A stretch of 46,280 nucleotides of DNA from a virus, in the IMG/VR virus record IMGVR_UViG_3300042549_000870, positions 1-46,280 of that record; one strand, 5' to 3'. The notes below the pieces were generated by a model that was not told the origin of the DNA, searched no databases, and saw only the letters and a list, made by a program, of their open reading frames with translations. Both the position numbers and the translations under genes were made by a program. This document shows, piece after piece, positions 25,705 through 46,186 of the stretch. Every line of letters begins with the position of its first letter. The first letter of the stretch is position 1.

Positions 25705-25720
25705 GACCGTTTCCGCAGAC

Positions 25721-25746
25721 AAAAAAGGCGGGGTCGAACCCCCGCC
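25721..25746 (-). terminator. Intrinsic terminator upstream of PrimPol gene
   Basis: On the - strand the sequence reads GGCGGGG-GTTCGA-CCCCGCC followed by six T. This is a 7-bp all-GC-type stem with a 6-base loop and U-tract. It ends transcripts from the HTH gene, or acts as an attenuator, because the PrimPol ATG is only 17 bp beyond the U-tract and no promoter fits in between. Confidence 0.85.
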
Positions 25747-25765
25747 AACATAAAAACCTATGATG

Positions 25766-26077
25766 TCAGATTGTGATGCCTACCATTTCCTCTATGTACC
25801 TCTTTGCATTGAACAAAGTCGGGGCCGGTAAAAGCCCCTTCTCCATGTCTTGCTTGACCAAATCCATGAAGACTTCAACTGTCTTGCGCTTGTTCTCTCG
25901 CACACCACGACCTCTGAACCACTTGTACACGGTCATGCGTGAAGTCTCCAAAGCACGGGCTACATAGGCGGCAGGAAGGTTTGCCTCGACGCACAGCCTA
26001 CCTAGTTGCACCCCAAGACGAGTTGGGTCTGCACGTTGTAAATCAAGTAAAAATTCTTCGCTGTACGAACGTGGCAC
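25766..26077 (-). CDS. HTH DNA-binding protein, 103 residues
   Basis: The start is a GTG at 26077 preceded by GAGGTTGTT. The centre contains a helix-turn-helix: GRLCVEANLPAAYVARALET then SRMTVYKWFRGRGV, in which the recognition helix is SRMTVYKWFRG. The remaining C-terminus is helical and charged (ENKRKTVEVFMDLVKQDMEK). This is the size of phage Cro/regulator-like or origin-binding proteins. It lies between the probable ssDNA-binding gene and a terminator in front of PrimPol, so it could regulate that readthrough or the right-end control sites. Target unknown. Confidence 0.7.
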   Translation of the reverse strand: MPRSYSEEFLLDLQRADPTRLGVQLGRLCVEANLPAAYVARALETSRMTVYKWFRGRGVRENKRKTVEVFMDLVKQDMEKGLLPAPTLFNAKRYIEEMVGITI

Positions 26078-26084
26078 AACAACC

Positions 26085-26927
26085 TCACTTACTAGTCCAT
26101 TCCTTGATTACGTCAGACACATCCGCTGCCGGAGCAGCAGTCTGTTTCTTGGTCTCACGCAACTTCGGTTCCTTGGCGGGAGCAGGGGCTGCTGCAGCAG
26201 CGACCTCTGTTTCATCGTTCTGATAGACCGTCAGTTTGATAGACGCTTCAGCAGTAGCACTCTTGCTCTGACTGGTCAGCGTATCAAGGTCATTCGGATT
26301 GATGCCCGACACAGGCGAGAACACCACGCGAGGCACAGGCGACTTGGTGTCGAACTGCATCTTGGTGATGACCCGACCCGCTGCGATGTTGTGATTGGCA
26401 AGCATCTTCACGTATTCACGGAAGGGCCACTTTCCGTTCTCTTCCTTACCAAACACCGACGTAGCGGGGAGAACCAACTGCATGATGTCGCCACCGGGAT
26501 CACCCGGCAACACAACTGCCGTACGCCAAGACAGACGGCAAGCCGTACCGTTACCGCCCTGTCCCGAACCCTTGACCGACATAGGGCAGGACTCACAACG
26601 TGCTGCAAGAGGATTCTTTACCTCTGCATCGGGAGTCTCAGAATTGCTTGACCAACAGACCGGCGCGACCTTCTCACCTTCACGGTACGTGCCGCTGTAG
26701 TAAGTACGGCTCGGCTTGTGAGACATCTTCACAAAGATGATGTTCATGTGCCGATCTTCGATGGAGCCGATCTCCTTGCCACCGGTCATCTTGCGGAACA
26801 CGCCACCCTTGATGGAGATGCGCTTGTTACCGCCAAGTGAACCACCGGCAATAGCCTTGGTGTCTTCATCCAAGCCGCCAATGAGGGCAAGATCGTTCTT
26901 CAAACTGGCAATGATATCTGTACTCAT
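26085..26927 (-). CDS. Probable single-stranded DNA-binding protein, 280 residues
   Basis: The ATG at 26927 follows GTAGGAGTCAGTT. The product has a Gly-rich N-terminal part (AIAGGSLGGNKRISIKGGVF), a beta-rich core with a three-Cys cluster (ARCESCPMSVKGSG, then NGTACRLSW) that could bind zinc, and an Ala/Pro linker (VAAAAAPAPAKEP). It ends in a short terminal tail SDVIKEWTSK, the kind of separate tip used by phage SSBs to recruit partners. It sits between the helicase operon and PrimPol. An OB-fold SSB role is inferred from layout and context, not from a strict motif. Confidence 0.5.
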   Translation of the reverse strand: MSTDIIASLKNDLALIGGLDEDTKAIAGGSLGGNKRISIKGGVFRKMTGGKEIGSIEDRHMNIIFVKMSHKPSRTYYSGTYREGEKVAPVCWSSNSETPDAEVKNPLAARCESCPMSVKGSGQGGNGTACRLSWRTAVVLPGDPGGDIMQLVLPATSVFGKEENGKWPFREYVKMLANHNIAAGRVITKMQFDTKSPVPRVVFSPVSGINPNDLDTLTSQSKSATAEASIKLTVYQNDETEVAAAAAPAPAKEPKLRETKKQTAAPAADVSDVIKEWTSK

Positions 26928-26952
26928 AACTGACTCCTACTAAATAACTGTG

Positions 26953-27354
26953 TTAACTGACTTTACGAACAGTGATGCCGAACTCGCGCATCACACTCAC
27001 ACCGGGAGGCAACCCGTCATTAGTCCGGTCGGACAAATGCTGCTTGAAGTTGCTCTGGTGTATACGGCGCTCAAGAAGTTCCACAGCCTCGTTCTCAAGC
27101 ACGTACTTTCTAAAATTGTCCCAATCGTTGCAGTAGAACCGCTCACTCAACTTACGGATCACCGTACCGTAAGTCGTCTTGATGCTATCCGCGTTGATGT
27201 CATTGCACACGCTAAGAAGCGCGGCCTCAATCTTCGCCATATCTTCCTTAAATCGTGCGTCTTGCGCTTCGTATTCACGCAGAATTTTTTCGCGTTGACC
27301 GCGAATGGCAAGATACGCATCTACCATCTGCTCTGTGTTCACCGACATGTTCAT
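26953..27354 (-). CDS. Helical protein coupled to the SNF2 helicase, 133 residues
   Basis: The ATG at 27354 overlaps the helicase TGA (ATGA). The N-terminal half is a long coiled coil (AIRGQREKILREYEAQDARF). The C-terminal half is a small mixed domain (TVIRKLSERFYCNDWDNFRK; NFKQHLSDRTNDGLPPGVSV) ending GITVRKVS. The layout recalls Gp157/Gam-like phage proteins that sit next to helicase or recombination genes, but no diagnostic motif is visible. A role in replication or recombination is inferred from tight linkage to helicase and SSB-like genes. Confidence 0.55.
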   Translation of the reverse strand: MNMSVNTEQMVDAYLAIRGQREKILREYEAQDARFKEDMAKIEAALLSVCNDINADSIKTTYGTVIRKLSERFYCNDWDNFRKYVLENEAVELLERRIHQSNFKQHLSDRTNDGLPPGVSVMREFGITVRKVS

Positions 27355-28928
27355 TCCTCCAGTTCTTGTTTATACAAATCCACCAACTTTTGGTGGCTAT
27401 CCACTTTGCCCTGCAGCATGTTGTACATTTTATTCTCGACATCGGAGCCTTGGAGATGAACCACCGTCATCTTGTTGACTTGTCCGACGCGATCAATACG
27501 CGCAACACATTGCAAGTACGTCTCAACACTCATCACGGGCGACCAAAAGACGACAGTATCTGCAGCCGTCAGCGTAATACCATGTGACGCTGACTGTGGT
27601 TGGATGATAAGAATCTTTGGATCGTTTTGTTTCTGAAATCTGCCAATGATTGCAGTGCGTTCTTTAGGAGATACGGAGCCTTTGATGACTTCGACCGTGT
27701 AGTTTTCTCCAAGCAAGAACTTCTCTACAACATCAATAGTGTGTATGTACGGTACGAATACTACTACCTTGTTATACGTTTCATCAAGCACTTCTTTGAG
27801 CGTGTTGAGTCGCGGTGAAATGTCGAACTCAACCACTTCGCGTGTGTCGGTGTAGACCGCACCACCAGATATCTGTAATAACTTGTTTAGACTAGCCGCT
27901 GCATTGACTGCCGAGATCTGTTCTCCGGCGGCTTCAATCAAGAGTTGACGCTTTAAGTCTTTATAGTAACGCTCGACTTGTGTCGTAAGTGGCACATCGC
28001 GTGTCTGATACACAACATCTGGTAGGTCTAAGCATTCGCTTTTGGTAAAACGAATTGCAGGTTGCAGTGCTTTGTAGACTTCATCCCGCGCATTGAATTT
28101 GGGCGACCACTTGAAGCGGCTGATTTGCGTCATCACACGGTCGCGCCATGCAGTACTATACTTCGGAACGCGCCACGGTGAGATAAGTTTGGCTAGACCA
28201 AACGCATCAGTAGGTGACTGAGCCGCAGGCGTGCCGGTCATCATCCATAGTCTAGTATTTGGTGTAACCAACTTGGCAAGGGTGCGCCACCGCCGAGTCT
28301 GTGTAGATTTGTATGCATTAGCCTCGTCAACAATGATCAGGTCGAACGCTGCCTTTTCTAGTGCATCGAATACGGTATGCACACCATCGAAGTTGATGAT
28401 AACGAAGTCGTACTCTGAGTCGATAACCTTCTTACGCTTGGACGTATCGCCGTGGGCTACGCCGCACGTTCTGTGCATCGCGGTTTTGAAGATGTCGGCT
28501 TGCCATGCCGAATACATAATGGACAACGGGCAGATGACCAGCACACGTTTAATCTGACCTATGTTCATCAGATAGTCAACGGCCCAGATGGCAGCGGATG
28601 TCTTACCTGTTCCTGCCTCGTTGAAGCAGAAAGCGCGGGGGCGCAGACTCAAGAAACTTGCCGTAGTTATTTGATGGCTGAACGGGCGATAGATACCGGG
28701 CCACTTATAGTCTCGCGTCATCGGGGAAGGGAACTGTATCGGTGTCACAGATGCCACATCGGAATAGGTGGCTAACTTGACCATCTCATCATAGTCCCAA
28801 TACACCACAATCTCTTTCGTGTACTCATTTTCACCAACCAACTTGCTGCGTTCAACCGTATCTAATACTTGATCAGCGGCTTGATTAGGCAGTACAACCC
28901 TCACTGCTGCGTCTTGAATTATCTGCAT
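27351..28928 (-). CDS. SNF2-family DEAD/DEAH-type helicase/translocase, 525 residues
   Basis: Superfamily 2 motifs are in order: Q-like KWPGIYRPFSHQ, motif I FNEAGTGKTS (residues 102-111), motif II LIIVDEAN (D201/E202), motif III MMTGTPAAQSP, motif V ASHGITLTAADTVVFWSP and motif VI CVARIDRVGQ. The RIDRVGQ form is typical of the SNF2 branch. It should use ATP to translocate on or remodel DNA during replication, repair or recombination. It lies upstream of the coiled-coil, SSB-like and PrimPol genes. The start codon is preceded by an intrinsic terminator and the leader GGAAACGGAC, matching the arrangement at PrimPol. Confidence 0.9.
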   Translation of the reverse strand: MQIIQDAAVRVVLPNQAADQVLDTVERSKLVGENEYTKEIVVYWDYDEMVKLATYSDVASVTPIQFPSPMTRDYKWPGIYRPFSHQITTASFLSLRPRAFCFNEAGTGKTSAAIWAVDYLMNIGQIKRVLVICPLSIMYSAWQADIFKTAMHRTCGVAHGDTSKRKKVIDSEYDFVIINFDGVHTVFDALEKAAFDLIIVDEANAYKSTQTRRWRTLAKLVTPNTRLWMMTGTPAAQSPTDAFGLAKLISPWRVPKYSTAWRDRVMTQISRFKWSPKFNARDEVYKALQPAIRFTKSECLDLPDVVYQTRDVPLTTQVERYYKDLKRQLLIEAAGEQISAVNAAASLNKLLQISGGAVYTDTREVVEFDISPRLNTLKEVLDETYNKVVVFVPYIHTIDVVEKFLLGENYTVEVIKGSVSPKERTAIIGRFQKQNDPKILIIQPQSASHGITLTAADTVVFWSPVMSVETYLQCVARIDRVGQVNKMTVVHLQGSDVENKMYNMLQGKVDSHQKLVDLYKQELEE

Positions 28929-28949
28929 GTCCGTTTCCTGTTAGTTATT

Positions 28950-28969
28950 AAAAGCCCCTTACGGGGGCC
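28950..28969 (-). terminator. Intrinsic terminator upstream of the helicase gene
   Basis: On the - strand GGCCCCCGTAAGGGGCTTTT forms a 5-bp GCCCC/GGGGC stem with a five-base loop and a T-tract. It lies 21 bp upstream of the helicase ATG at 28928 and 140 bp after the HNH-like gene, so it either ends that transcript or attenuates the helicase operon. Confidence 0.75.
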
Positions 28970-29110
28970 AGTCGTCTGAATCACCGTCTGGAAACACGAG
29001 GTGCGAGAGACGGCTTCAGATGGCATGGTTACGCGCCATGTCTATTAACGCGAGAGGGGGAAGTGGGTGGAAACCCCTCCTACTCCTGCACACTCATGCC
29101 TTGTGCGGAA
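28970..29110 (-). ncRNA. Candidate structured leader RNA upstream of helicase
   Basis: This gene-free interval can fold. CCGTCT (28984-28989) pairs with AGACGG (29008-29013) around an 18-base loop, and CATGG (29024-29028) pairs with CCATG (29036-29040). The terminator hairpin follows at 28950-28969. On the - strand the order is hairpin, hairpin, terminator, start codon, which is the order expected of an attenuator or riboregulator. No known riboswitch consensus is recognised. Confidence 0.3.
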
Positions 29111-29368
29111 TTATTTCATCGCTCCAGTCGATTTGCGACGGAACGAACGATTCTTGGCGGGTGGCTCTAGCCTAGTGCCATCTTTGTTAGTACCGCCTTT
29201 CGACAAGGCTTTCACGTGAGCAACGTCTTTACCTTTGCGGTTCACGCCTTTCTTGTCGTATGACCGACGCGCTCGTTGACGCTCCATACGGTCGCCGTGT
29301 TCGTCACGCTCAACTTGTTGCTTGTACTCTTTTTTGTATGGTCTTGCTTTATTAACGTAAGGCATCAT
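29111..29368 (-). CDS. HNH-like small basic protein, 85 residues
   Basis: The ATG at 29368 overlaps the nuclease stop (ATGATG). The protein is strongly basic (KKEYKQQVERDEHGDRMERQ, then RARRSYDKKGVNRKG). Near the end it has VAHVKALSKGGTNKDGTRLE and KNRSFRRK, close to the HNH pattern (D/V-x-H, S/A-K-G-G-T-N, N-R-S). The first HNH Asp/His is present as AHV and the final His is not obvious, so it may be a degenerate or minimal HNH nuclease or just a basic nucleic acid-binding protein. It is downstream of the Cas4-like nuclease in one transcript. Confidence 0.6.
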   Translation of the reverse strand: MMPYVNKARPYKKEYKQQVERDEHGDRMERQRARRSYDKKGVNRKGKDVAHVKALSKGGTNKDGTRLEPPAKNRSFRRKSTGAMK

Positions 29369-30021
29369 CGTTCTCCATTAAATCTGCATGTTGTTACTGG
29401 ACACCATCTGCGGCACAAAAAACCGGGGTTCTCGGGCCACATGTTATTGGCGTACGCCATTTGCAAACGGTCCAAGTCTGGTGTGAATGTTTCCCACAAC
29501 TTTTGTTGATCTTCTCGCTTGTACTCTTCAAACACCAACGTATTGTGAGCGACAAACATGAGACTAGCCTTGATAGTTTTAAGGTCGGGGAAGTGGGAAT
29601 AAGCCATCAACGCCATCAACTTCAACTGATTCGGGTCGGGGTTCCGTGCGCTACCTGTCTTGTAGTCCACGATGAACGCATGGTCATTGTCTACGATCAT
29701 CAAGTCTACGATACCGCGTACCCAATACTCAGAGGCATCAAATGCACAGGGTTGCTTGTTCTGATCCAACGCCATCTGATACTCAGCGTAACGTTCGCCA
29801 GCGACAGTAAGCAGCGGGTCAACGAATTTCTTGTATTGTTGATAGTTTTTTGGCAGAGGACTGCCGTCTCTTACGTAGTCTTCCAACGCCTTGTGTACAG
29901 CAGTGCCATAGGTCATCTGCTCAGACACACGCTTGGTATAGTTTTGTGCAATCTTGACTTCATAGAACTGCCGTGGGCAGTTGATGAAATCCTTCAACCC
30001 GCTGAATGACCACTTAATCAT
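29365..30021 (-). CDS. Cas4/RecB-like PD-(D/E)XK nuclease with Fe-S type cysteines
   Basis: The ATG at 30021 is used; the frame also has a TTG one codon upstream. The N-terminus WSFSGLKDFINCPRQFYE carries a lone Cys followed by Pro-Arg. The nuclease core has VRGIVDLMIVDN (catalytic Asp), AFIVDYKTG (D-x-K) and a Gln helix (NQLKLMALMAY). The C-terminus has three more Cys in CRRWCPVTTC. A Cys before the core and three after it is the layout of the Cas4/AddB 4Fe-4S nucleases. It probably resects or processes DNA ends for recombination. It overlaps the Zn-ribbon protein gene by 8 bp and the HNH-like gene by 4 bp. Confidence 0.85.
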   Translation of the reverse strand: MIKWSFSGLKDFINCPRQFYEVKIAQNYTKRVSEQMTYGTAVHKALEDYVRDGSPLPKNYQQYKKFVDPLLTVAGERYAEYQMALDQNKQPCAFDASEYWVRGIVDLMIVDNDHAFIVDYKTGSARNPDPNQLKLMALMAYSHFPDLKTIKASLMFVAHNTLVFEEYKREDQQKLWETFTPDLDRLQMAYANNMWPENPGFLCRRWCPVTTCRFNGER

Positions 30022-30499
30022 CAAACCTACCTGCCATCACTTCGTTGTAGTCGAACAATTTATCAAAGCATTCGTCTATGCGTATGACTTCTTCGCTGTA
30101 ACCTTCAACTATGTTGTTGTAGGTAAACGCCTTTTGGGGGACCTTGATCCCGCCACGATAGAAATCCCAACCCTTTGCAGTCGGCCTCCACAGGCCGCTA
30201 TATTTTGCGCCACCTTCATTGGGATTCTTGGGGCAACGTTCGACAAGTCCCCAAGATGTTAAAATAGGAAGTTGATTGCTGCGAATGACAAATCGTGGGC
30301 CTGTGTTCGGCACATCGATCCAATCGTTGCCTGTCCGTGCCTTCTCTCGGCACAACCAGATCAACGACTTCGCCATCGTCTTGTTCAAGATACGAGCGTA
30401 GACCTTGCCCCACCGATCACAGACAGGGCAGTGGCCCCCGTCCTTTTCAGTCATCCCTCTCCACCTTTTTCGCAGCGTATGCACTGTGTCCAAAAACAT
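30014..30499 (-). CDS. Zn-ribbon/winged-helix phage protein, 161 residues
   Basis: The ATG at 30499 is chosen over the upstream TTG at 30526 because it directly follows the polymerase TGA with GGAGAG 7 bases before it. An N-terminal zinc-finger half (HCPVCDRWGKVYARILN) leads into a helical wing region (AKSLIWLCREKARTGNDWID; LPILTSWGLVERCPKNPNEG). The end is IVEGYSEEVIRIDECFDKLF. Proteins of this plan are common in phages near polymerase genes and are probably DNA-binding. The precise role is unknown. Confidence 0.6.
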   Translation of the reverse strand: MFLDTVHTLRKRWRGMTEKDGGHCPVCDRWGKVYARILNKTMAKSLIWLCREKARTGNDWIDVPNTGPRFVIRSNQLPILTSWGLVERCPKNPNEGGAKYSGLWRPTAKGWDFYRGGIKVPQKAFTYNNIVEGYSEEVIRIDECFDKLFDYNEVMAGRFDD

Positions 30500-30500
30500 G

Positions 30501-32360
30501 TCAGCACTCTCCGTAGGATTGTCCAAACTTGGCCTCGCAAGCCACCGGTAGCCCCGCCGCCCAAGCCGGGGGCGTAGACATAATACTAGTAATGTATACT
30601 AATGCGTCCTGTAATTCACTAGTGGGTACAACACAAACTGCGGCATCGTGGACGGTCAAGACGGGTCGGTACCGCTTATTTATCTGAAGCATCTGTTCAC
30701 CCACGATGATACGGGCCAGCGCCTGAACGATGTTTTCTACCATCGCGCCGCCCCAGATACTTACCTTGCCCTTCCGAGATTCGTAAAAGTACTGCCGGTT
30801 TTCTAACGTTAACTTGGGATAACGTATGTACAACCCATTTGGTAGCCGGATACCGTGTGCGCTAACCCACACAGCGTTATGTCCGCCAAGGGTGTACTCC
30901 TGCGAACCCGTAGGCCATGCCGCCAAATGCCCCAAAGCGTTATCACACTCGCGCCAAAGGGCGGGAATTTTATCGTTCTCCTGCCGGTAAAGATCTACGA
31001 TACGCTTTGCTTCATCCTCGCTGACAACAGCGCCGGGCGGCTGCGTCTTCAAAGTATGTCTTAATTTCGCTGCGCCAGTGCCATACCCTAGTCCGAGGAT
31101 ACAAGTCTTGCCGACAAAGCGTTCGACCGGATTGGCCTTGCTGATGGGCTGCTTATAGATCTTGGACGCGAAGACGCTATACACATCCTCACCGTTGGCG
31201 AACTGCTTGACCACATCGTCCTGTCCTGCAAGCCACGCCAAGACCCGCGCCTCGATCTGTGATGAGTCGCAGTTGATGACGTAGTGACCTGCCGGGGCCA
31301 TGATGGCGTTCTTCAACGCCTTCTTTTTCTTGTCACGGCTAGGCAGGTTCTGCAGGTTCACGGAGTCAAGCCCAGACCACCGACCTGTGTGTGCGCCGTA
31401 ATACTTCAGCGGGATGGGCAGCAGCCCCTTGTTCCTAGCACCGATGCCGATGAACCGCTCGACACGCGACTCCTCGATGGTGGACTTAGTACCCAGACGC
31501 ACCGCGCAAAGGTGTTGGACAACGGGGTCATCGTGTTCTTGAAGTGTGATGAAGCCTTCATCGTTCTTGGCGAGAGCATAGGTCTCCTTGCCCGTGGTCA
31601 GGCTCGTCTTCATGGGCGGCTCGATACCGAACGAGCGCAGCACCTCAGCAAACTGCGGGTTGCTTGCCAACTTGGCGCGGACTTCTTCCTCTGTACCAAC
31701 CTTCAGCACGTCCATGAGGCTACGCAAGAGCGCGGCCTTCTCTTGTCTAATCTCATCTAAGCGATCTACAAGCAGCGCGTCGTTGATACGCAGCACGGGT
31801 TGGGTGTACATACGCAGCGTCATGTCGATCAGATGCAACTCGGATGTAGGGAAACCTTCAGCCAGAAGTGCGTTGAACAACTTGAACGTAAGTTGAGTAT
31901 CGTTGATGCAGTATGCGCCGTAACGCGCTAAGTCTTCTGGCGTGAAGTCTTTGCGGTACTTGCCCAGAGCGTTGATGACCTCGGTACCCTTCTCGCCCAA
32001 CTGATACCGCTCAGCCAGAGCCTTGAGAGAGCCACCCGCATCCACGCCATGAATGGCACGAGCCATGCACAGCGTATCGAAATACTTAGCCGGGATGATG
32101 CCGTACGTGAACGCCAAGATAGCCCCATCAAAGAGCATGTTATGACAGAGCAGTGCGCTGTTTGCCCAGTCGATCTTGTCGAGATACGCCTTGACCTCGG
32201 CCTTGGTACCGCTGAACCACTCAGGTTCACCATCGTCAATCTTTACGCTGACACCGATGACCTCAAAGCGCGGGTCGCGGATGTACTCCTCCGTTGTCAT
32301 ACGAGACAGGGAGAAGTCCTTGGCGTAGTACGTCTCGAAATCAAGCGTAACAAAACTCAT
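30501..32360 (-). CDS. Family A DNA polymerase with 3'-5' exonuclease (T7 gp5-like)
   Basis: The 619-residue replicative polymerase has exonuclease motifs LDFETYY (D7/E9), CHNMLFDGA and YCINDTQLTF (ND). Polymerase motif A is NCDSSQIEARVLAWL (catalytic D365). Motif B is VERFVGKTCILGLGYGTG with the R-x3-K...YG pattern, and motif C is LTVHDAAV (D572). Most relatives have HDE at motif C; here the residue after the Asp is Ala. It should replicate the phage genome with the PrimPol-helicase, the SNF2 helicase and the SSB-like protein. It overlaps the upstream 180-residue gene by 4 bp. Confidence 0.93.
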   Translation of the reverse strand: MSFVTLDFETYYAKDFSLSRMTTEEYIRDPRFEVIGVSVKIDDGEPEWFSGTKAEVKAYLDKIDWANSALLCHNMLFDGAILAFTYGIIPAKYFDTLCMARAIHGVDAGGSLKALAERYQLGEKGTEVINALGKYRKDFTPEDLARYGAYCINDTQLTFKLFNALLAEGFPTSELHLIDMTLRMYTQPVLRINDALLVDRLDEIRQEKAALLRSLMDVLKVGTEEEVRAKLASNPQFAEVLRSFGIEPPMKTSLTTGKETYALAKNDEGFITLQEHDDPVVQHLCAVRLGTKSTIEESRVERFIGIGARNKGLLPIPLKYYGAHTGRWSGLDSVNLQNLPSRDKKKKALKNAIMAPAGHYVINCDSSQIEARVLAWLAGQDDVVKQFANGEDVYSVFASKIYKQPISKANPVERFVGKTCILGLGYGTGAAKLRHTLKTQPPGAVVSEDEAKRIVDLYRQENDKIPALWRECDNALGHLAAWPTGSQEYTLGGHNAVWVSAHGIRLPNGLYIRYPKLTLENRQYFYESRKGKVSIWGGAMVENIVQALARIIVGEQMLQINKRYRPVLTVHDAAVCVVPTSELQDALVYITSIMSTPPAWAAGLPVACEAKFGQSYGEC

Positions 32361-38209: not shown

Positions 38210-38862
38210 ACGGCCTCCTGTGCTACGACTTGTAGCAGGGACAACGGGATGGACATAGCAGTCTTCCCGCCATAATGGCGCGGATAGATGAGCACACGCC
38301 CCGGTGACTCCAACATCATCGCGTTGGCGACACCCTTCTCGATACCCTCAAAGTCATCAAGCACAAAGACCGTGTGCGGAGCCAAGATTTTGTTGAGCGG
38401 CTCTTCATCCTGCTGACTCAAGCGACCGTCGAGATAGACCAGATCAGCCTTCAATCCTTCCTCTGCCATGTCAGCAAACATTTCATGAGAAGGTGTGTGA
38501 AAATACTGCTCAATCAGTTTGGCTTGTTCTGGATACAGAGCAAGATCAATCCTATTTGATACGTCACACGTGCGAATCTGCGCGGTAGTTCCTGTCGCCA
38601 AATCCATCACCAAAGTAGATACACCAATGAATGTACCTACCTCGGCAATGACCTCGGGCTGAAAGAACTTGACTATCTTGTACAAGTCCCCCGCATCGTT
38701 CTCACCCAACGACCCTGTGTTGTAGTCAGCCTGTTCCCTGAGATGTTGCTGCCCCTGCACGATGTCTTGGATTTTGCTCCAGTCCATATCGACCTTCTCG
38801 TCGATGATTTGCCAGACTATCTCGCTCAAGCGACGGCGACTTAACTGGATGGGGCGGATCAT
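38206..38862 (-). CDS. Class I SAM-dependent O-methyltransferase, 218 residues
   Basis: The Rossmann motif is PEVIAEVGTFIGVSTLVMDL (E-x-G-x-x-x-G-x-S), with IRTCDVSN as motif II. ADLVYLDGRLSQQDEEPLNK and HTVFVLDDFEGIEKG cover the later Asp motifs. These match the AviT/catechol-type O-methyltransferase and CmcI-like groups. It overlaps the DUF3310 gene by 4 bp upstream and the 42-residue gene by 4 bp downstream. Together with the glycosyltransferases it probably methylates a phage-directed glycan; the acceptor is not visible. Confidence 0.8.
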   Translation of the reverse strand: MIRPIQLSRRRLSEIVWQIIDEKVDMDWSKIQDIVQGQQHLREQADYNTGSLGENDAGDLYKIVKFFQPEVIAEVGTFIGVSTLVMDLATGTTAQIRTCDVSNRIDLALYPEQAKLIEQYFHTPSHEMFADMAEEGLKADLVYLDGRLSQQDEEPLNKILAPHTVFVLDDFEGIEKGVANAMMLESPGRVLIYPRHYGGKTAMSIPLSLLQVVAQEAV

Positions 38863-39341
38863 GCTCCCTTCCTCACGTCGATCTCACGCTTGAGATAGAA
38901 CAACGCCTTCTCCAAGTCCTGCACGGGGTCGGAGTCCTTCTTACCCGCACGGCTCACATACTTCACCACGTTACCCAAACGATAGTTCAAGTCCTTCGCT
39001 TCGATGAAGTCGATGGTCTCGATACCACCGTCACGATAGTGCGGGGGATGGTTCACCATGTCGGGAGGGGAAATCACTTCCAACGCTTTTTTGGCTTGAA
39101 AGACTTCTTGGATGAGCCTCGACCGTGGGCTTTTGAATGCTGCCTTGACCTTCTTGATGTATTTCTTTTCAGCCTTCACGACCTTCGGATTGTGACTGCG
39201 TTCGGGCTGCGCTTGTTTATTCTTCGCCGCTTGCCACTTGACTTGATGCACCAAATTAACGGAAAACTTCGTTTGCTTGACGATTTCTTTGACACTCAAA
39301 CCACGCGCCAATAAACGGCGAATCTTTTCAGACTTACTCAT
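38859..39341 (-). CDS. HTH-DUF3310 protein, 160 residues
   Basis: The N-terminus KIRRLLARGLSVKEIVKQTK and FSVNLVHQVKWQAAK is a helix-turn-helix. A basic linker (KAEKKYIKKVKAAFKSPRSR) leads to a DUF3310 domain: MVNHPPHYRDGGIETIDFIE, then YRLGNVVKYVSRAGKK and DLEKALFYLKREID. DUF3310 is a small phage domain sometimes labelled a nucleotide kinase-like or SaV protein, with no proven function. Here it is fused to a DNA-binding unit, so a regulatory role is possible. It overlaps its upstream neighbour by 8 bp. Confidence 0.85.
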   Translation of the reverse strand: MSKSEKIRRLLARGLSVKEIVKQTKFSVNLVHQVKWQAAKNKQAQPERSHNPKVVKAEKKYIKKVKAAFKSPRSRLIQEVFQAKKALEVISPPDMVNHPPHYRDGGIETIDFIEAKDLNYRLGNVVKYVSRAGKKDSDPVQDLEKALFYLKREIDVRKGA

Positions 39342-40656: not shown

Positions 40657-40827
40657 TCACATCTCCCTCAAAAAGTATTTGCGGCCTTTGCTGTCCTCAA
40701 GCAGGTCAGCCTCGTCGTACCAATCGGTGTCGTAGTCCCAGATTTCGACATCGACATTATCCGGTGCCTCGATGACTTCGGGGATACCACCTTCGATGGT
40801 GATGATTACTCGTTTCTTGTCGCTCAT
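40657..40827 (-). CDS. Small acidic protein, 56 residues
   Basis: The ATG at 40827 overlaps the previous TGA (ATGA) and the frame ends one base before the next ATG. The product begins MSDKKRVIITIEGGIPEVIE, has an Asp/Trp/Tyr-rich centre (VDVEIWDYDTDWYDEADLL) and ends KGRKYFLREM. It is highly acidic and could mimic DNA or bind a basic partner, although this is inference. Coupling to both neighbours supports it as a gene. Confidence 0.65.
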   Translation of the reverse strand: MSDKKRVIITIEGGIPEVIEAPDNVDVEIWDYDTDWYDEADLLEDSKGRKYFLREM

Positions 40828-41252
40828 GCCTTGTCCTCCTCTTTAATCTGCACATCGCAGGTCACAGTCCAGTTGACGAACTCATACTTGTCGGGGTCAA
40901 CGAACCATCGTCGGCGCAGGTCCTCCGCAAGCAACTTGGTGACTTTCTCCTCATCGACCTTGCCCGTCGAGTCCACAACATCCGCCAACTCGACGCTAAC
41001 CTTGTTCGGAGCAGGGTCATCCTCGTCCACCATGTACTCGTCCGGGTCTTCGTCCCATGTCGTCCAGTAAGAATCGCTAGGCTCAAGCGCATCGTCATCG
41101 TCGCTGCACAACTCCTCCCATTCCTCGGGAGTGAAGTGCTTATGCAAGCACTCGTCGCTGCAGTAGTAAGCCCTGCCGCCATCAAAGCAGTACCCCTCAT
41201 TCATGCCCTTGCCGCACTCGTCGCATTCACGGGCGTATTTCTTGTAAGCCAT
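40824..41252 (-). CDS. Zn-finger acidic protein, 142 residues
   Basis: The N-terminus has four Cys in a treble-clef-like arrangement (ARECDECGKGMNEGYCFDGG and AYYCSDECLHKHF). An acidic middle (SDDDDALEPSDSYW; DEDPDEYMVDEDDPAP) follows, with a C-terminal beta region (WFVDPDKYEFVNWTVTCDVQ). The zinc part resembles MYND/HIT-like or transcription-factor fingers, but no exact match is claimed. It is the first gene after the VWA-metallopeptidase gene and may belong to that module. Confidence 0.6.
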   Translation of the reverse strand: MAYKKYARECDECGKGMNEGYCFDGGRAYYCSDECLHKHFTPEEWEELCSDDDDALEPSDSYWTTWDEDPDEYMVDEDDPAPNKVSVELADVVDSTGKVDEEKVTKLLAEDLRRRWFVDPDKYEFVNWTVTCDVQIKEEDKA

Positions 41253-41253
41253 G

Positions 41254-42429
41254 TCACACCTCCACTTTTACTGTTTTGCCACCGTTCGGCGGCACAAAGT
41301 CACGCTTGCTTGTCACAAGCCACAATGTCGGACACATCACATCCCATTTGATATCGCTCTCAACGTAACCATCGGTGAACACCAACACACAGTCGGCTTT
41401 GTAGTTACGCTTGAGCATATGTTCGCTCACGCACGATACATGCGTGCCACCTCCGCCCGTGGGTTTCAACAACTTGGATATATCGTTGAACCCGTCTGGT
41501 GTGAACACCTGCTCGCTACTGACCGTCGTATCCCACCACATGACGCGCAGTGCATCGGGGTGTACTTGCTCACAGATAGACTGCAACTCAGCGGCGAACT
41601 CGTTAATCATCGCAGCATTGATGCTGCCAGACGTATCGATGGCGACCACGATGTCGCCCACCTTCTCGCTGATGACTCCCGGCTGAATGATGTCATCCAG
41701 AATCATCCGTTTGTCGAACTTGCGATAGGTATGCTCATCGTTGCCTTGAGCAACGCTTGAAACGAACTCACGCAAGGCAGTCGCCCAATCGACCTGCGGC
41801 TGCAACGTCTCGGTGACCGACCTTGGCAACTTCTGACCAAACCGCCCTGCCAACAACCCACCTTGGTGGATGGCTTCGTTGACTTGCTCGACATACTCCT
41901 TCATCTCCTTTGCCGACATCTGCTCAGCATTGCTCATGTCATGTTCATCAAGCGGCTGGCCCGCACCGTTGCTTTGCCCGCCCTGTCCACCGCCTTGTTC
42001 TTCCTCCTTCTCCAAGTGTCGGTAGATTTCGGGGTAAGACCATCCGTGGAACTTGGGGTCATACAAGCCACCGTCCGGTAACTTGATGAACGCCTTGTCC
42101 TTGATGTTCATGATTACATCATTGACTACATAGTCAGCCGCCATGTTCGCCAACTTGGAGTTCTTCTTCCAATACGGCAAGCCACGCACCGTGTGCTTGA
42201 ACACTTTGTGTAGACCTTCGTGCAACTTCAAGCCGCGCACCTCGGGTAACATGAGTTTGTTGAGGAACGCCTCGCCATACTTCTCGTTGACACCATCCGT
42301 ACAAGCGGTTGGTACGTTGTCCACGACAGTTGTCTTGCCCATCACCAACACACCGGCATACGCCGCCGTCTCGGGGTGACGCAACAGGTCAACCGTTGCT
42401 TTCTCCAGTTTTTTGATCGCTTCTTGCAT
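41254..42429 (-). CDS. VWA-domain protein with N-terminal HExxH metallopeptidase (DUF2201-like)
   Basis: The 391-residue protein has an N-terminal zincin-like part with VRGLKLHEGLHKVFKH (H70-E71-x-x-H74), a Gln/Gly-rich linker (about 145-158) and a C-terminal von Willebrand A domain. That domain has a full MIDAS start, DIVVAIDTSGSIN (D265-x-S267-x-S269), with later GGGGTHVS and LVFTDGYVES motifs. This is the two-part layout of DUF2201 proteins, which in bacteria and some phages pair with MoxR-family AAA+ ATPases. The ATPase gene is 15 bp upstream in the same transcript. It probably acts as the substrate-recruiting or proteolytic half of an ATP-driven complex. Confidence 0.85.
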   Translation of the reverse strand: MQEAIKKLEKATVDLLRHPETAAYAGVLVMGKTTVVDNVPTACTDGVNEKYGEAFLNKLMLPEVRGLKLHEGLHKVFKHTVRGLPYWKKNSKLANMAADYVVNDVIMNIKDKAFIKLPDGGLYDPKFHGWSYPEIYRHLEKEEEQGGGQGGQSNGAGQPLDEHDMSNAEQMSAKEMKEYVEQVNEAIHQGGLLAGRFGQKLPRSVTETLQPQVDWATALREFVSSVAQGNDEHTYRKFDKRMILDDIIQPGVISEKVGDIVVAIDTSGSINAAMINEFAAELQSICEQVHPDALRVMWWDTTVSSEQVFTPDGFNDISKLLKPTGGGGTHVSCVSEHMLKRNYKADCVLVFTDGYVESDIKWDVMCPTLWLVTSKRDFVPPNGGKTVKVEV

Positions 42430-42444
42430 GATGCACCTCGTTAG

Positions 42445-43563
42445 TTAGACCAACAGTTCCGGGTTGTCCTTTACAAACTGCGACACCGCCGCATTGTTCT
42501 TGGCGAGTTTGTGTAACTTCGGAGCGTAGACCATCGATACAAAGATGGACTGCAACTCCTTCGTCGTGGCTCGTTTGATGAACATCATCGCGCTCGTCAT
42601 CTCGTCGTTCGTACTGATGGCATCCACCAGATTGAACATCGTCATGAACAGTGCAGCGGTTTTCTCTGGCAAGCGAACGCTCTCGGGGTTGGTGAAGATG
42701 TCGTTCGGTTTGATCAAATCACTGTTCATCTTGAAGAAGTTCGCCATGGACTCGGCTGCTGCTTGACCCACGATGCCGCACATTGCAGCAAGTGATACAT
42801 CAAACCCAAGCACCTCCCACAACTTGACCACAGAGTCGTTCTTCTCAAGCGAACGGGGTGATACGAACGACACATTGGTCGAGCGTGGGCTGAACACGTA
42901 CGGATTGCCCGACACATCCCCGTCTTTGTATGACGCAAACGCAGAGTCATTGAGCGACACCCAAGCGCGGGTCAGCGCACTGATGTTGTTCTCACCCGCC
43001 CACGCTGCCCACTGCCTTGAACTTGGCCCACGCATGTTGAGCAAGCCAATGCGATTGCCAACGTGTGCTTCGATGTTGTCGTTCACACCGTCTGACGAAT
43101 AGTTAGATGTGCCGAACACCCTGCTGCCATCCGGCAATCTACGGTCACCGATGTACCGCTCAAGAATCAAGCGAGTGACCAGCGGTTTCAACAACTTCGG
43201 CAGTTTGAGTATCTCGTCAATCATCACCACCTTCGGTCGCGGGTCAGTGAAGTCAATCAGCCCACTGACATACTGCTCGATAGTCTTCGTCTCGCGGTCT
43301 GGCATATACATTGACAGGTCGTTCTCGCGCAGCGTACCGCCGTCGATATAGACATACTGATATTTGTCAGTCGGGAAGTTATCCCCCGGCTTGCGCCACT
43401 TGTCACCGTTGCGTTGGGCAAGCAACTTCAAGATGGAAGTCTTGCCTTGACCCGGTGATGACTGGATGACATAAGTCACGCTCTCGCCAGTCAACTCAAT
43501 GAGTCGGGCGGCCTCGTTGATGTCAACGGATGGCGCAGTGTTGATGGTTGTAGATTTAGACAT
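42445..43563 (-). CDS. MoxR/CobS-like AAA+ ATPase, 372 residues
   Basis: Walker A is IQSSPGQGKTSILK (K41), Walker B VVMIDEILKLP (D116/E117), and the sensor-1 segment RVFGTSNYSSDG. A MoxR-type helix-2 insert region follows the Walker A strand (GGTLRENDLSMYMPD). Such ATPases remodel protein complexes and typically work with VWA partners. It lies between a DUF3150-like gene and the VWA-metallopeptidase gene. An 18-bp perfect palindrome stands 20 bases upstream of its start, before the GAGGAG ribosome site. Confidence 0.88.
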   Translation of the reverse strand: MSKSTTINTAPSVDINEAARLIELTGESVTYVIQSSPGQGKTSILKLLAQRNGDKWRKPGDNFPTDKYQYVYIDGGTLRENDLSMYMPDRETKTIEQYVSGLIDFTDPRPKVVMIDEILKLPKLLKPLVTRLILERYIGDRRLPDGSRVFGTSNYSSDGVNDNIEAHVGNRIGLLNMRGPSSRQWAAWAGENNISALTRAWVSLNDSAFASYKDGDVSGNPYVFSPRSTNVSFVSPRSLEKNDSVVKLWEVLGFDVSLAAMCGIVGQAAAESMANFFKMNSDLIKPNDIFTNPESVRLPEKTAALFMTMFNLVDAISTNDEMTSAMMFIKRATTKELQSIFVSMVYAPKLHKLAKNNAAVSQFVKDNPELLV

Positions 43564-43582
43564 GTGTTTCTCCTCGTTGTGA

Positions 43583-43600
43583 TTCCACCCATGGGTGGAA
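43583..43600. promoter_or_regulatory. 18-bp palindrome, copy 1 (AAA+ gene leader)
   Basis: TTCCACCCATGGGTGGAA is a perfect inverted repeat in the 41-bp gap between the DUF3150-like and AAA+ genes, 20 bases before the ATG. No promoter is apparent between the two genes here, so it would be present in the mRNA as well as in DNA. It could act as an operator or as a 7-bp RNA hairpin with a CAUG loop. Confidence 0.8.
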
Positions 43601-43604
43601 GTGA

Positions 43605-44513
43605 TTAATTGCCAAACCCAAACTTCGACAGGATGTCATCGACCTCTGCCTTGACGTAGGCGCGGGTCGAGTCGTTCTTCTTCAACTCGTCCATGTCCAC
43701 GCCAGTCAGCACCCGCTCCAGTTCAATGCGTATGGCATCCAACCGTGTGTCCCCGGCAGGGTTGAACTTCTTGAAGGTGTCGCAGAAAGCCAATGCTTTC
43801 TTGAGTGTTTCAGTATGCAAGCGACCGCGAGTGACCTTGAGTGAACCATCTTCACGCTCGACCACATTCTCGCCACATGTGTGGGATATCGACTGCATGA
43901 CCTCGACCAACTGATTGACCTGTTGATTGAGCATGTTGTCGATGGTGGACTGCGCTTGCTTGTTGAAATGATTGGTCAAGTCCTCGGCAAGGTCGTGGGC
44001 AATCTGCACACGGAAGTCACCCTGCGGTACTTCGGCGGTATACAGCCGCATGGTGAATTTGTTGCGTAGTTCTTCCACCGTGGGGTAGTCTTCGCGCCGA
44101 AACATCCCGTTCAACTTGAACGCCATGTCGCTCACCTTGTTGGGATATGCATTGAGGAAGTCCTCGCGCAACTCAATCAGTTTGGCTTCGAGTGCCTTGT
44201 ACTCTTCGTTGAATGCGGGGTAGTTCACAATCGGCAAGATTCCCCACTGCCCTGCCCATGAATATGTTCGACGCTTGAACCAATTGCGTACGGTCTGGCG
44301 ATGGTTCACCAACTTCTTGTGCTGCGGGTCACCGGCAAGCAAGTGTTTAGCAAACTTACCGGCATCACGGTCAGTGTTCTTGAGCGCGGTAATCTCGTCG
44401 CTCACCTCGTCGTCGGTCTGTGTGCCAGTCCACACGGTCGTGCGGACATTGACCAGAATCGCAGATGTAGACAGATCGATCAGACTCTTCGGCTTTGTCA
44501 ATTGGATAGACAT
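43605..44513 (-). CDS. DUF3150-like protein of the AAA+/VWA module, 302 residues
   Basis: The protein starts SIQLTKPKSLIDLSTSAILV and has NVRTTVWTGTQTDDEVSDEI, then YSWAGQWGILPIVNYPAFNE. A long helical half follows (LIELREDFLNAYPNKVSDMA; AQSTIDNMLNQQVNQLVEVM). The length, the V-W-T-G-like start, the middle Trp-Gly-x-x-P-x-x-N-Y part and the genomic place beside a MoxR ATPase and a VWA protein match the DUF3150 type of mobile elements and phages. The function is unknown; it is plausibly the third, scaffold or target-binding component. It starts 20 bases after a diverged palindrome copy and has its own promoter at 44601-44629. Confidence 0.65.
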   Translation of the reverse strand: MSIQLTKPKSLIDLSTSAILVNVRTTVWTGTQTDDEVSDEITALKNTDRDAGKFAKHLLAGDPQHKKLVNHRQTVRNWFKRRTYSWAGQWGILPIVNYPAFNEEYKALEAKLIELREDFLNAYPNKVSDMAFKLNGMFRREDYPTVEELRNKFTMRLYTAEVPQGDFRVQIAHDLAEDLTNHFNKQAQSTIDNMLNQQVNQLVEVMQSISHTCGENVVEREDGSLKVTRGRLHTETLKKALAFCDTFKKFNPAGDTRLDAIRIELERVLTGVDMDELKKNDSTRAYVKAEVDDILSKFGFGN

Positions 44514-44533
44514 TTGTTTGCTCCTTTGTAGAA

Positions 44534-44551
44534 TTCCACTCTTGGGTGGAA
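44534..44551. promoter_or_regulatory. 18-bp palindrome, diverged copy 2 (DUF3150-like gene leader)
   Basis: TTCCACTCTTGGGTGGAA differs from the consensus at two central positions. On the - strand the left half (TTCCACCCA) is intact and the right half is changed, so the outer six-base arms still pair. It lies 20 bases upstream of the start codon, between promoter and AAGGAG ribosome site. Confidence 0.75.
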
Positions 44552-44600
44552 AATTAATTACTTGATATCGGCCAAAAGTTTACGCTCTACCAGTATGAAT

Positions 44601-44629
44601 AGTATATCAAAAGTGTACATATAAGTCAA
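44601..44629 (-). promoter_or_regulatory. Sigma70-type promoter for the AAA+/VWA module
   Basis: On the - strand TTGACT (44629-44624) and TATACT (44606-44601) are separated by exactly 17 bases. The spacer begins TATATGT and contains AC-TTTTG, nearly identical to the promoter at 45555-45583. A start near 44594 would give a roughly 80-base leader containing palindrome copy 2. Confidence 0.85.
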
Positions 44630-45015
44630 GCAACCATCGAACGATTGTTCGGCATGAGCGGCACGTCGTTCATGGTCAGCCAGTCGTGCAGCACATGGAC
44701 TGCATCACTGCTGTGTCCACCGACATGCCACACCTCGTTGAACTCGGGTTCAATGCCCTCCTCTGGGCCACAATAAGACGGGCCAACCTTCCAGTCGTAG
44801 ATGGTCACGATGATGTATCGGTGTGCGTTGTAGTCGTGGAAGCGCAACACCCACTCGGCTTCAGTCTTGTAGGCATCTCCCGGCAGTGGCTGACCAAACA
44901 GTCGCACTAGGTCGCCGTACCGGACATTGATTACGCCTTGGTAGCATGTGCCACTTATTGCGTGGGGGTAGTCTTGGAACGCTTCGACTGATAACACTCT
45001 GTTCTGTAATGACAT
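44626..45015 (-). CDS. Hypothetical early protein with WHVGG motif, 129 residues
   Basis: The ATG at 45015 has AGGAGACCTAATC before it. The sequence is beta-rich with a Tyr/Trp-rich middle (AEWVLRFHDYNAHRYIIVTI; YDWKVGPSYCGPEEGIEPEF) and WHVGGHSSDAVHVLHDWLTM near the end. Proteins with the YDWK and WHVGG phrases occur in phage and prophage early regions, but the role is unknown to me. Its stop overlaps the -35 box of the module promoter. Confidence 0.6.
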   Translation of the reverse strand: MSLQNRVLSVEAFQDYPHAISGTCYQGVINVRYGDLVRLFGQPLPGDAYKTEAEWVLRFHDYNAHRYIIVTIYDWKVGPSYCGPEEGIEPEFNEVWHVGGHSSDAVHVLHDWLTMNDVPLMPNNRSMVA

Positions 45016-45052
45016 GATTAGGTCTCCTTCTATTAATTAAGTGATAGGCACG

Positions 45053-45067
45053 GCCAACTTGGTTGGC
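45053..45067 (-). other. Intergenic hairpin after the 67-residue gene
   Basis: GCCAAC and GTTGGC form a 6-bp stem around a 3-base loop directly after the stop codon at 45068. No T-tract follows on the - strand, so it is more likely an mRNA processing or stability hairpin than a terminator. Confidence 0.35.
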
Positions 45068-45271
45068 TCAAAACGGATGGACAGGGCGTGGCTGTGGCGG
45101 CTCGTCGAGCGGCAGTTCCATCTGCTCCCAACGCTCGTTGAGTTCGCGCCCAAACTGGCGCATGGCGTCTTCAATGGTTTCGTAGTGCATCTGCTCCATC
45201 TGCCGTTGCCATGCCTCGTCGCTGTCCTGTGCAACCCACCAATCGGCGGGAATGTCTCGCGGGGTAGTCAT
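45068..45271 (-). CDS. Small acidic early protein, 67 residues
   Basis: The ATG at 45271 overlaps the stop of the upstream zinc-finger gene by 4 bp. The sequence (DIPADWWVAQDSDEAWQRQM; YETIEDAMRQFGRELNERWE; LDEPPQPRPVHPF) is hydrophilic, Trp-rich and helical with a Pro-rich end. No domain is recognised; early placement suggests a host-takeover or regulatory peptide. Confidence 0.5.
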   Translation of the reverse strand: MTTPRDIPADWWVAQDSDEAWQRQMEQMHYETIEDAMRQFGRELNERWEQMELPLDEPPQPRPVHPF

Positions 45272-45531
45272 CGGTAAAATCCTCCTTTGTTGTTGATGCC
45301 TTTCAAGTCTTCCAAATCAGTGACCAGTATGTAGTTTGATTTGTGTAGGGGAACTACACACCGTACTACCTGCTGGGCATTCGCTTCGCCACACGGCATA
45401 CACAGGTAGATGCCAAGCGCCCATCGCCTAGCATCTACCGCTTCGCCGCACTTCACACACAAGTCACTTGTCTCGTCAGATTCCGTTTTCCACCCATGGG
45501 TGGAAACATAATTAAGCGTTGCTCGCGTCAT
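45268..45531 (-). CDS. Zn-finger early protein, 87 residues
   Basis: The ATG at 45531 follows GGGGAG and lies about 17 bases after the predicted transcript start, so it is preferred to the in-frame start at 45564 that would lie in the promoter. A zinc-ribbon has CVKCGEAVDARRWALGIYLC followed by MPCG (two Cys pairs). The end is VVPLHKSNYILVTDLEDLKG. The palindrome copy at 45488-45505 falls within codons 9-14. It is the first gene of the leftward block and is similar in plan to small early phage zinc proteins. Confidence 0.65.
   Translation of the reverse strand: MTRATLNYVSTHGWKTESDETSDLCVKCGEAVDARRWALGIYLCMPCGEANAQQVVRCVVPLHKSNYILVTDLEDLKGINNKGGFYR
45488..45505. promoter_or_regulatory. 18-bp palindrome, copy 3 (inside first early gene)
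   Basis: An exact TTCCACCCATGGGTGGAA, about 45-60 bases downstream of the predicted start of the 45.56-kb promoter and inside the coding start of the zinc-finger gene. It is in the same kind of place, relative to the promoter, as copy 2. Confidence 0.8.
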
Positions 45532-45554
45532 GATTTTCTCCCCATTTCCCATAT

Positions 45555-45583
45555 AGTATACCAAAGGTAGACATATAAGTCAA
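45555..45583 (-). promoter_or_regulatory. Sigma70-type early promoter
   Basis: On the - strand TTGACT (45583-45578) and TATACT (45560-45555) are spaced by 17 bases, with a spacer starting TATATGT and containing ACCTTTG. It closely matches the promoter at 44601-44629 and drives the first leftward gene with a short leader carrying GGGGAG. Confidence 0.88.
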
Positions 45584-45591
45584 TACTTCAA

Positions 45592-46020
45592 AGAACGAAA
45601 GTTGTGGAACGCGGATCGAGTTTGTTCCAGTTGTTCCAGTCTTGTTCCAGTTTTTTGTTTACATATGCGACAGAGTTTGGAAAACGGAGCGGGAGTGAGA
45701 GAAGTGTAAGTGATTGAATTTATTAGATAGAATAAAATTAAATTTATATATAGTAGTAGAAAGTAGTGAAAAATGGTGCCTTTGTTCCGTTGTTCCAGTG
45801 TTTTAGGGGGAGAGCGGTTGGCAAAATGATAAGTTGATTCACCGCGCTGCAAACTTTCTCGCGCACGATTTTAAAATGCTTTCCCCCGCCCTATCCCGAA
45901 AAAACTGGAACAGTGGAACAAACCCGTTTTTTCTTAATGTAATCAAGCACTTGCGTGTTCCAGTCGATTTTGGAAACTGGAACAAAACTGGAACAAACAC
46001 CTAAAAACTGGAACAAAACA
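45592..46020. other. Candidate replication origin: TGGAACA repeats around an AT-rich core
   Basis: About twelve copies of (C)TGGAACA(A) or its complement occur here: 45605, 45622, 45631, 45641, 45782, 45790, 45905, 45913, 45956, 45977, 45988 and 46008. After the first degenerate copy, those left of the centre read mainly TTGTTCCAG and those on the right mainly CTGGAACAA, so the arms point towards each other. Between them 45700-45780 is strongly AT-rich. A 90-codon open frame on the - strand at 45580-45852 has a composition unlike its neighbours and is not counted as a gene. The layout fits an iteron-type origin or master regulatory region. Confidence 0.5.
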
Positions 46021-46021
46021 T

Positions 46022-46186
46022 GATTGATTATATAATTAATCAATTTCAACCCAATTTATAGGTTAATTACGTAATCAATCAATTTTGACCCCATCTAAAA
46101 TGGCTAATTACGGCGAAATCTCAATTTGATTTTCCACCCATGGGTGGAATGGCCTGAATGGTGCGGCGGTTGATTGATTACATAAT
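46022..46186. repeat. Three GATTGATTA-NN-TAAT repeats
   Basis: GATTGATTATATAAT at 46022-46036, its complement ATTACGTAATCAATC at 46066-46080 and GATTGATTACATAAT at 46172-46186 share 13 of 15 positions. The first is part of a larger inverted repeat (ATTGATTA/TAATCAAT, 46023-46044). They follow the TGGAACA cluster and flank palindrome copy 4. Possible binding sites of a phage regulator or initiator. Confidence 0.6.
46132..46149. promoter_or_regulatory. 18-bp palindrome, copy 4 (intergenic control region)
   Basis: The third exact copy of TTCCACCCATGGGTGGAA, here without an adjacent gene, between repeats two and three of the GATTGATTA set. Its presence away from a leader favours a DNA-binding site over a purely RNA role. 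Confidence 0.8.

Follow-up and report, generated by a model that had tools for sequence, protein, structure and literature searches.

MoxR-type AAA+ ATPases encoded next to proteins with a von Willebrand factor A (VWA) domain have been described in phages, plasmids and bacterial genomes. According to the portions of the literature drawn on here, gp24 and gp25 of phage N4 belong to the core of 25 N4-like phages, are among 14 core genes without known function, and are middle transcripts (PMC4193335). The ORF100-103 region of plasmid pCAR1 is, per its authors, conserved in R478, Rts1, SXT and R391; transcription of the operon is host-dependent, a role in conjugative transfer was suggested, and the paper already points to a MoxR-VWA neighbourhood on conjugative elements (PMC2642839). 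The MoxR-vWA ternary conflict systems (Kaur et al. 2020) have VMAP, iSTAND, FtsH or beta-propeller proteins as third components, with a fast-evolving VWA protein and third component (PMC7159879). Here we describe three tandem genes of IMG/VR virus record IMGVR_UViG_3300042549_000870 (46,280 bases; hereafter the window, with all positions counted along its whole length), in which an ATPase-VWA pair is preceded by a gene for a remote relative of the DUF3150 family. The pair itself is known and common in phages; in the open-licence literature searched we found no paper on DUF3150, and did not find described its occurrence in a phage together with ATPase and VWA genes or its several partner sets.

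The three genes and their proteins

The genes lie in a tight leftward tandem at the right end of the window (44513-41254, minus strand), with intergenic gaps of 41 and then 15 bases. An open reading frame (ORF) check agreed with the original prediction, made from the sequence alone, of three frames in a row at these coordinates:

43605..44513, minus strand: P1, 302 amino acids, with an alpha/beta N-terminal part followed by long helices; a remote DUF3150 family member and proposed adaptor, from ORF, profile and fold evidence
42445..43563, minus strand: P2, 372 amino acids; predicted MoxR-type AAA+ ATPase, phrog_1297, N4 gp24-like, from PHROG match and motifs
41254..42429, minus strand: P3, 391 amino acids; DUF2201 protein with a metallopeptidase-like domain and a VWA domain with full MIDAS, N4 gp25-like, from Pfam and motifs

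The trio is kept together in relatives, as had been predicted. Nine viral loci with P1 were found; the ATPase gene is adjacent in all nine and the VWA gene comes next in seven, the other two contigs ending first. P1 is 99-100% identical to that of the window in four of these loci and 80-84% identical in the other five. Among more distant viral contigs, one (L042) has all three genes in the order of the window, and another (L041) has the ATPase gene, then DUF3150, then the contig end. A scan of genome contigs with patterns derived from four Burkholderiales proteins identified 77 bacterial loci, to which classes were assigned by tblastn; the same kind of scan with a phage-only P1 alignment gave 58 pattern matches and no true relatives. 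The trio class comprises 58 of the 77 loci, with the ATPase in 56 and the VWA protein in 57. The two loci without the ATPase start 137 bases upstream of P1, one other locus has it approximately 5 kb away, and P1 is broken in the single locus without the VWA protein. Members of this class come mainly from Burkholderiaceae and are therefore not independent.

The remaining 19 loci form a second class, in which P1 relatives are accompanied by a 480-amino-acid AAA ATPase (15/19; in the four exceptions the contig begins no more than 329 bases from P1) and often by DUF1257 (11/19), with no DUF2201 protein. This second DUF3150 neighbourhood (L100-L117, L119, L036) was seen in Planctomycetes, Deltaproteobacteria, a Bacteroidota metagenome-assembled genome, a Nitrospirota plasmid and others; the L036 locus also has DUF2997. 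Because the trio class, the 480-amino-acid AAA class and the MoxR-DUF3150-VWA genes of pCAR1 all show the pairing, DUF3150 goes with AAA+ ATPases in general and behaves as an AAA+ partner. The same data bear on the idea that P1 is an unrelated neighbour and that the functional unit is the ATPase-VWA pair only. Most phages in which the pair was found have it without a detectable DUF3150, as this idea would have it; against it, P1 homologues of phages, plasmids and genome contigs alike adjoin an AAA+ ATPase gene, and they do so in differing gene orders and with differing partner sets, which makes it very improbable.

The kinship of P1 to DUF3150, claimed in the original prediction, is detectable through intermediates and not directly. 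P1 has no Pfam match to PF11348 (DUF3150) at E ≤ 1, and nothing across the whole record matches that profile at E ≤ 10. It does match plasmid proteins (lowest E 2e-15; 36 records in all at E ≤ 10), and some relatives of these proteins carry the DUF3150 annotation. The Manganitrophus relative exceeds the Pfam DUF3150 cut-off (E 1e-8) and that of Cupriavidus basilensis is slightly below it (E 1e-4), while a protein of Synechococcus phage MinM2 annotated as DUF3150 has no Pfam match. When the phage P1 clade was compared by hhalign with a nine-member clade of plasmid and MinM2 proteins, the two aligned over 278 columns with Prob 99.7 and E 4.6e-26. PF11348 is matched at E ≤ 0.01 by 12 of the 36 members of the P1-family alignment (best 2e-12), and the profile built from these 36 sequences finds the pCAR1 DUF3150 protein with 32 bits (hhalign Prob 94, E 1.2e-7).

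The fold points the same way. An AlphaFold2 model of P1 built from the 36 sequences has a mean pLDDT (predicted local distance difference test) of 78.9; an earlier model from six near-identical sequences was poor (47.8) and was discarded. Foldseek gave 419 matches to the model in BFVD, headed by a phage protein that bears the name "DUF3150 domain-containing protein" (E 9e-18, template modelling scores 0.67/0.69). The other seven of the eight matches at E ≤ 0.001 are not named DUF3150, and this fold test is not fully independent, as the input alignment included DUF3150 relatives. No PDB structure matched the model at E ≤ 0.001; VIA-align Z scores reached 8.2, mainly with helical bundles, and were not accepted as kinship. 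Plasmid pRA1, considered as a possible source of DUF3150, was dropped after its candidate gene gave no match. Because profile comparison, intermediate sequences and fold search agree, we regard P1 as a divergent relative of DUF3150, recognizable by remote homology only. Kinship and adjacency, the two points on which the original prediction had staked itself, were both found.

For P2, comparison with PHROG gave the ATPase family phrog_1297 (E 2e-36); its best PDB profile match is midasin, and it scores slightly below the cut-off of Pfam AAA. Its Walker A motif, SSPGQGKT, occupies residues 35-42 (it had been placed at 36-43), and its Walker B residues are D116/E117, as predicted. We aligned the motifs of 25 ATPases and 26 VWA proteins chosen from phages, plasmids and genomes, the window included. 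The Walker A lysine K41, N154 and R237 are invariant in all 25 ATPases; we take N154 to be the sensor 1 Asn and R237 the sensor 2 Arg. Judged by these motifs and profile matches, P2 is a predicted MoxR-type AAA+ ATPase. The Walker B Glu is replaced by Asp (DD) in 7 of the 25 aligned ATPases (L029, L031, L037, L039, L040, L043, L076), all of them trio members on plasmids or genome contigs.

P3 scores above the Pfam cut-offs for PF13203 (DUF2201_N, E 2e-21) and PF09967 (DUF2201, E 3e-19). It has both motif sets that had been claimed, HExxH (H70/E71/H74) and a MIDAS (D265/S267/S269/T329/D353), and is thus a DUF2201 protein in which a metallopeptidase-like domain, a predicted peptidase, is joined to a VWA domain with a complete MIDAS. 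All five MIDAS residues are kept in 26/26 aligned VWA proteins and HExxH in 24/26. In the proteins of Littlefix (L016) and Variovorax (L039) HExxH is lost while MIDAS is retained, which suggests that the peptidase function may be dispensable in some members. Pfam shows no effector domain after the VWA domain, whose DUF2201 match spans residues 260-388 of 391 and leaves no space for one. Many phage records, including RefSeq ones, label N4 gp25-like DUF2201 metallopeptidase-VWA proteins "HNH endonuclease", which is the PHROG label of phrog_1314; P3 has no HNH match in Pfam, and the label looks like a propagated misannotation.

Proposed role and competing readings

The leftward strand of the window carries replication genes at 22861-32360, including those for a DNA polymerase, a primase/helicase and a helicase, and structural genes are rightward in the left half. 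The trio is placed near the head of the replication arm, in an early-operon-like position. We propose, with a probability of roughly 0.48, that it is an ATP-driven protein-remodelling and processing machine for DNA-transaction complexes of the element itself, with the DUF3150 protein as a predicted adaptor. By analogy with the MoxR-VWA family, the ATPase would form a ring, which the MIDAS of the VWA protein would dock to an acidic side chain either of the client or of the ring itself; the client would be pulled on through the hydrolysis of ATP. To this we add that the DUF3150 protein could be the adaptor or regulator that selects the client, and that the HExxH domain could cut or mature it. 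In phages the pair adjoins genes for replication or repair, and on plasmids the trio is often found next to transfer genes; the most likely client would therefore be a protein complex with which the element replicates, transcribes or transfers its own DNA. This proposal is close to one of the functions suggested originally, remodelling a complex or maturing a phage enzyme.

The neighbourhood evidence is as follows. A replication, helicase or DNA-repair gene is present in the displayed region of all 11 distinct annotated phages (taken from search hits and not at random, at least five of them Schitoviridae, with flanks of 6-10 kb). Among 65 plasmid-class loci searched, 51 are at least 12.3 kb long. 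Of these, 37 encode homologues of both VirB4 and a type IV secretion system (T4SS) ATPase, the gene for the latter starting 0.3-2.1 kb past the VWA match on the same strand. We also count in favour of the proposal the purifying selection on the trio, described below, and the transfer role suggested for the pCAR1 operon.

Several observations weigh against the proposed machine. Gene neighbourhood gives no proof of a client, the T4SS-linked loci come mostly from one bacterial family, and HExxH is broken in two of the 26 aligned VWA proteins. Most phage pairs lack a detectable DUF3150. In tblastn searches of a phage collection (50,697 records, counting RefSeq duplicates) the VWA protein was found in 621 and the ATPase in 106, and P1 had no match at E ≤ 1; a plasmid homologue of P1 gave three full-length matches, in records that are all 65,014 bases long, plus a single match that was weak and partial. 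A profile search for a hidden DUF3150 among ORFs of at least 100 amino acids in 11 pair-only loci (stretches of approximately 12-17 kb) found nothing better than E 1.6. A single clade of all trio-bearing proteins was rejected by the approximately unbiased (AU) test (p 0.0095 for VWA, 0.002 for ATPase), and so was a clade uniting the window group and every pair-only row (p 0.016 and 0.006), with long branches flagged. Because most phage pairs have no detectable DUF3150 and the trees reject a single trio clade, DUF3150 seems to have been gained or lost by the ATPase-VWA pair over time and not to be strictly required. As for individual placements, the window VWA protein is near those of Schitoviridae (93/92, not starred) and the ATPase groups with that of Rhizobium phage RHph_TM3_14A (97/93, long-branch flag), to which the window DNA polymerase is likewise closest (37%).

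Gene position also bears on whether the trio is a virion-assembly chaperone with a built-in peptidase, in which the ATPase and VWA protein would aid capsid or tail assembly and structural proteins would be trimmed by the HExxH domain. Such a role was proposed for the ATPase-metallopeptidase-VWA pair of group 2.2 jumbo phages (Iyer et al. 2021), with an archaeal virus MoxR-vWA precedent, in the part of that account used here (PMC7824862), and in roseophage RPP1 virion proteins are reported near the gp24/gp25 homologues (PMC4193335, in part). We nevertheless consider it rather unlikely: the trio of the window shares the leftward strand of the replication genes and lies apart from the structural genes, which run rightward; the N4 pair is transcribed with the middle genes, as cited above; and the trio is also found on plasmids (eight viewed, four typed as conjugative), where the annotation of the stretches viewed, which were not the whole plasmids, includes no virion genes.

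A role in host takeover or counter-defence, where the machine would dismantle or cleave a complex of the host, for example one that serves defence or replication, had been raised in the original prediction and is weakened by several lines of evidence. It is true that bacterial MoxR-VWA ternary systems are proposed conflict systems, that the VMAP gene order is as in the window (PMC7159879, in part), that phages and plasmids, both facing host defences, carry the trio, and that its early-operon-like position and sigma70-like promoters would fit. Yet the location within the replication arm weakens a conflict role, the pair is core in N4-like phages, PADLOC gives the trio nothing beyond one match at E 0.011, P3 has no effector domain after its VWA domain, and the published conflict systems, as far as the cited portion goes, have other third components and fast-evolving parts.

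Nor is dN/dS of the trio raised relative to the other genes compared. Between the window and L005 or L008 (82-85% identity in the trio) it is 0.10-0.17, which is mid-range: portal and terminases have 0.03-0.08, P0, P5 and g160 have 0.19-0.34, and the remaining genes have 0.07-0.29. These values are rough, since several pairs are almost saturated at synonymous sites. In the L005 comparison with 13 other genes, P1 is below seven, P2 below four and P3 below eight of them. In the L008 comparison P1 and P3 have 0.11-0.12 against 0.06-0.34 for 12 other genes, a measure that covers few genes and differs from the published one of sequence entropy. The trio is under purifying selection, mid-range for the phage, and therefore gives no sign of an arms race, yet no proof against one. 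Taken with the points above, we consider counter-defence unlikely.

A further reading holds that DUF3150 marks a separate MoxR-VWA ternary class of mobile elements and not of hosts, which would unfold or process proteins at DNA entry or early replication, possibly giant proteins that accompany the DNA. It is suggested by the 37/51 loci adjoining T4SS genes and by the fact that the window phage and MinM2 both encode an LPD38 protein of more than 2000 amino acids: the window has a 2198-amino-acid protein with this polyvalent-protein domain at 16090-22686, and in MinM2 LPD38 lies in an open frame of 2804 amino acids. ORFs of more than 1700 amino acids are also present in RHph_TM3_14A, phiFa and Vibrio D520. 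The giant-protein link stays speculative, because CRP-7 (largest ORF 1371 amino acids) and the L042 contig (none of at least 900) have no giant ORF and LPD38 is in only 3 of the 12 records searched; the reading as a whole is quite doubtful. To return to the proposed remodelling machine, the trio, which many large bacterial plasmids carry as well, seems to be a tool with which mobile elements reshape proteins and which has received little study.

Control region and flanking genes

The original prediction had a sigma70-type promoter and palindromic sites leading the trio, and both are present:

44601..44629, minus strand: sigma70-like promoter TTGACT-17-TATACT ahead of P1, from hexamer scan and relatives
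44534..44551, no strand: palindromic site TTCCACCCAAGAGTGGAA, lying 20 bases ahead of the start codon of P1 and 49 bases past the -10 hexamer
43583..43600, no strand: palindromic site TTCCACCCATGGGTGGAA in the P1-P2 gap, lying 19 bases ahead of the start codon of P2
45488..45505, no strand: the same palindrome, 49 bases after the promoter copy at 45583-45555, within the start of a small Cys-rich ORF
46132..46149, no strand: the same palindrome, farther upstream past small ORFs, from palindrome scan

The copy at 45583-45555 has the two hexamers of the P1 promoter at identical spacing. The whole promoter scan shows no excess (five sites against 6.7 expected by chance), and the case for the P1 promoter therefore rests on match quality, on the repeat and on its presence in relatives (8/9; the ninth, L006, begins only 83 bases upstream of P1). 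The 18-base palindrome has four copies in the window, all within 43583-46149, of which three are exact and the fourth is a variant. With as many as three mismatches allowed, it gives 16 strand-wise matches against 4.5 expected, a number reached in none of 100 shuffles; eight of the 16 are the four sites, each counted on both strands. Two units, at 45583 and 44629, consist of the promoter followed 49 bases later by the palindrome, and promoter and palindrome positions recur in the early region of relatives L001-L009, some as near variants. Exact TTCCACCCATGGGTGGAA occurs in IMG/VR in 12 stretches on 10 contigs, namely the nine P1-bearing contigs and L128 (4.2 kb). The palindrome could be an operator for a dimeric regulator or an mRNA hairpin; both are possible.

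The acidic, Zn-finger-like ORF at 40824-41252, which starts one base past the P3 stop, had been put forward as a fourth member. We rejected this, as the ORF is variable and not conserved among relatives: it adjoins P3 only in L001, L002, L014 and their duplicates, and is not beside P3 in L004, L005, L006, L008 and L009, with L003 and L007 ending before that point. Farther along, 38859-39341 encodes a protein with a DUF3310 domain (Pfam E 7e-18). Upstream, 45580-46100 is AT-rich with repeated CTGGAAC/GTTCCAG, iteron-like by eye (uncounted), and is a possible origin or regulatory region.

Comparison with known systems

The VMAP systems share with the window a MoxR, a VWA protein and a third component in the same third-MoxR-VWA order, as far as can be taken from the part of PMC7159879 used. 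The ternary conflict systems differ in that P1 has no match to their third components (Pfam only, no dedicated profiles being run) and P3 does not have the variable effector domain of their VWA proteins. The N4 gp24/gp25 pair of Schitoviridae likewise consists of a MoxR ATPase and a DUF2201 metallopeptidase-VWA protein, beside replication genes, and the jumbo-phage pair is of the same two kinds (PMC7824862, in part). The Schitoviridae pair differs by having no DUF3150 gene in the stretches searched, a search outside which the jumbo phages lie.

Synechococcus phage MinM2 and Planktothrix phage Pra-JY27 have MoxR, DUF3150 and VWA-like genes in one cluster, with the differences that the order is MoxR-DUF3150-VWA, small genes are interspersed and the proteins are distant. 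MinM2, Pra-JY27 and Pag-Yong1 count as one because of their equal length and identical matches, Pag-Yong1 being seen by match only. On the conjugative plasmid pCAR1 a MoxR/CbbQ ATPase, a DUF3150 protein (ORF102, read off the gene order) and a NorD-like VWA protein are likewise encoded by adjacent genes of a mobile element. Its DUF3150 protein scores E 8e-92 against PF11348, where P1 of the window has no match, its VWA protein is a 604-amino-acid NorD-like one without a DUF2201 match, and its MoxR-DUF3150-VWA order is unlike that of the window. The Burkholderiales plasmids, and the alphaproteobacterium Rhodovastum, have MoxR, DUF3150 and a DUF2201 VWA protein close together as in the window, and differ in the order MoxR-DUF3150-VWA, in a protein identity to the window of only approximately 22-29% and in a Walker B that is often DD. 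The occurrence of DUF3150 with an ATPase-VWA pair on both phages and conjugative plasmids would turn three "unknown" families into one testable machine, with phage N4 and pCAR1 as models.

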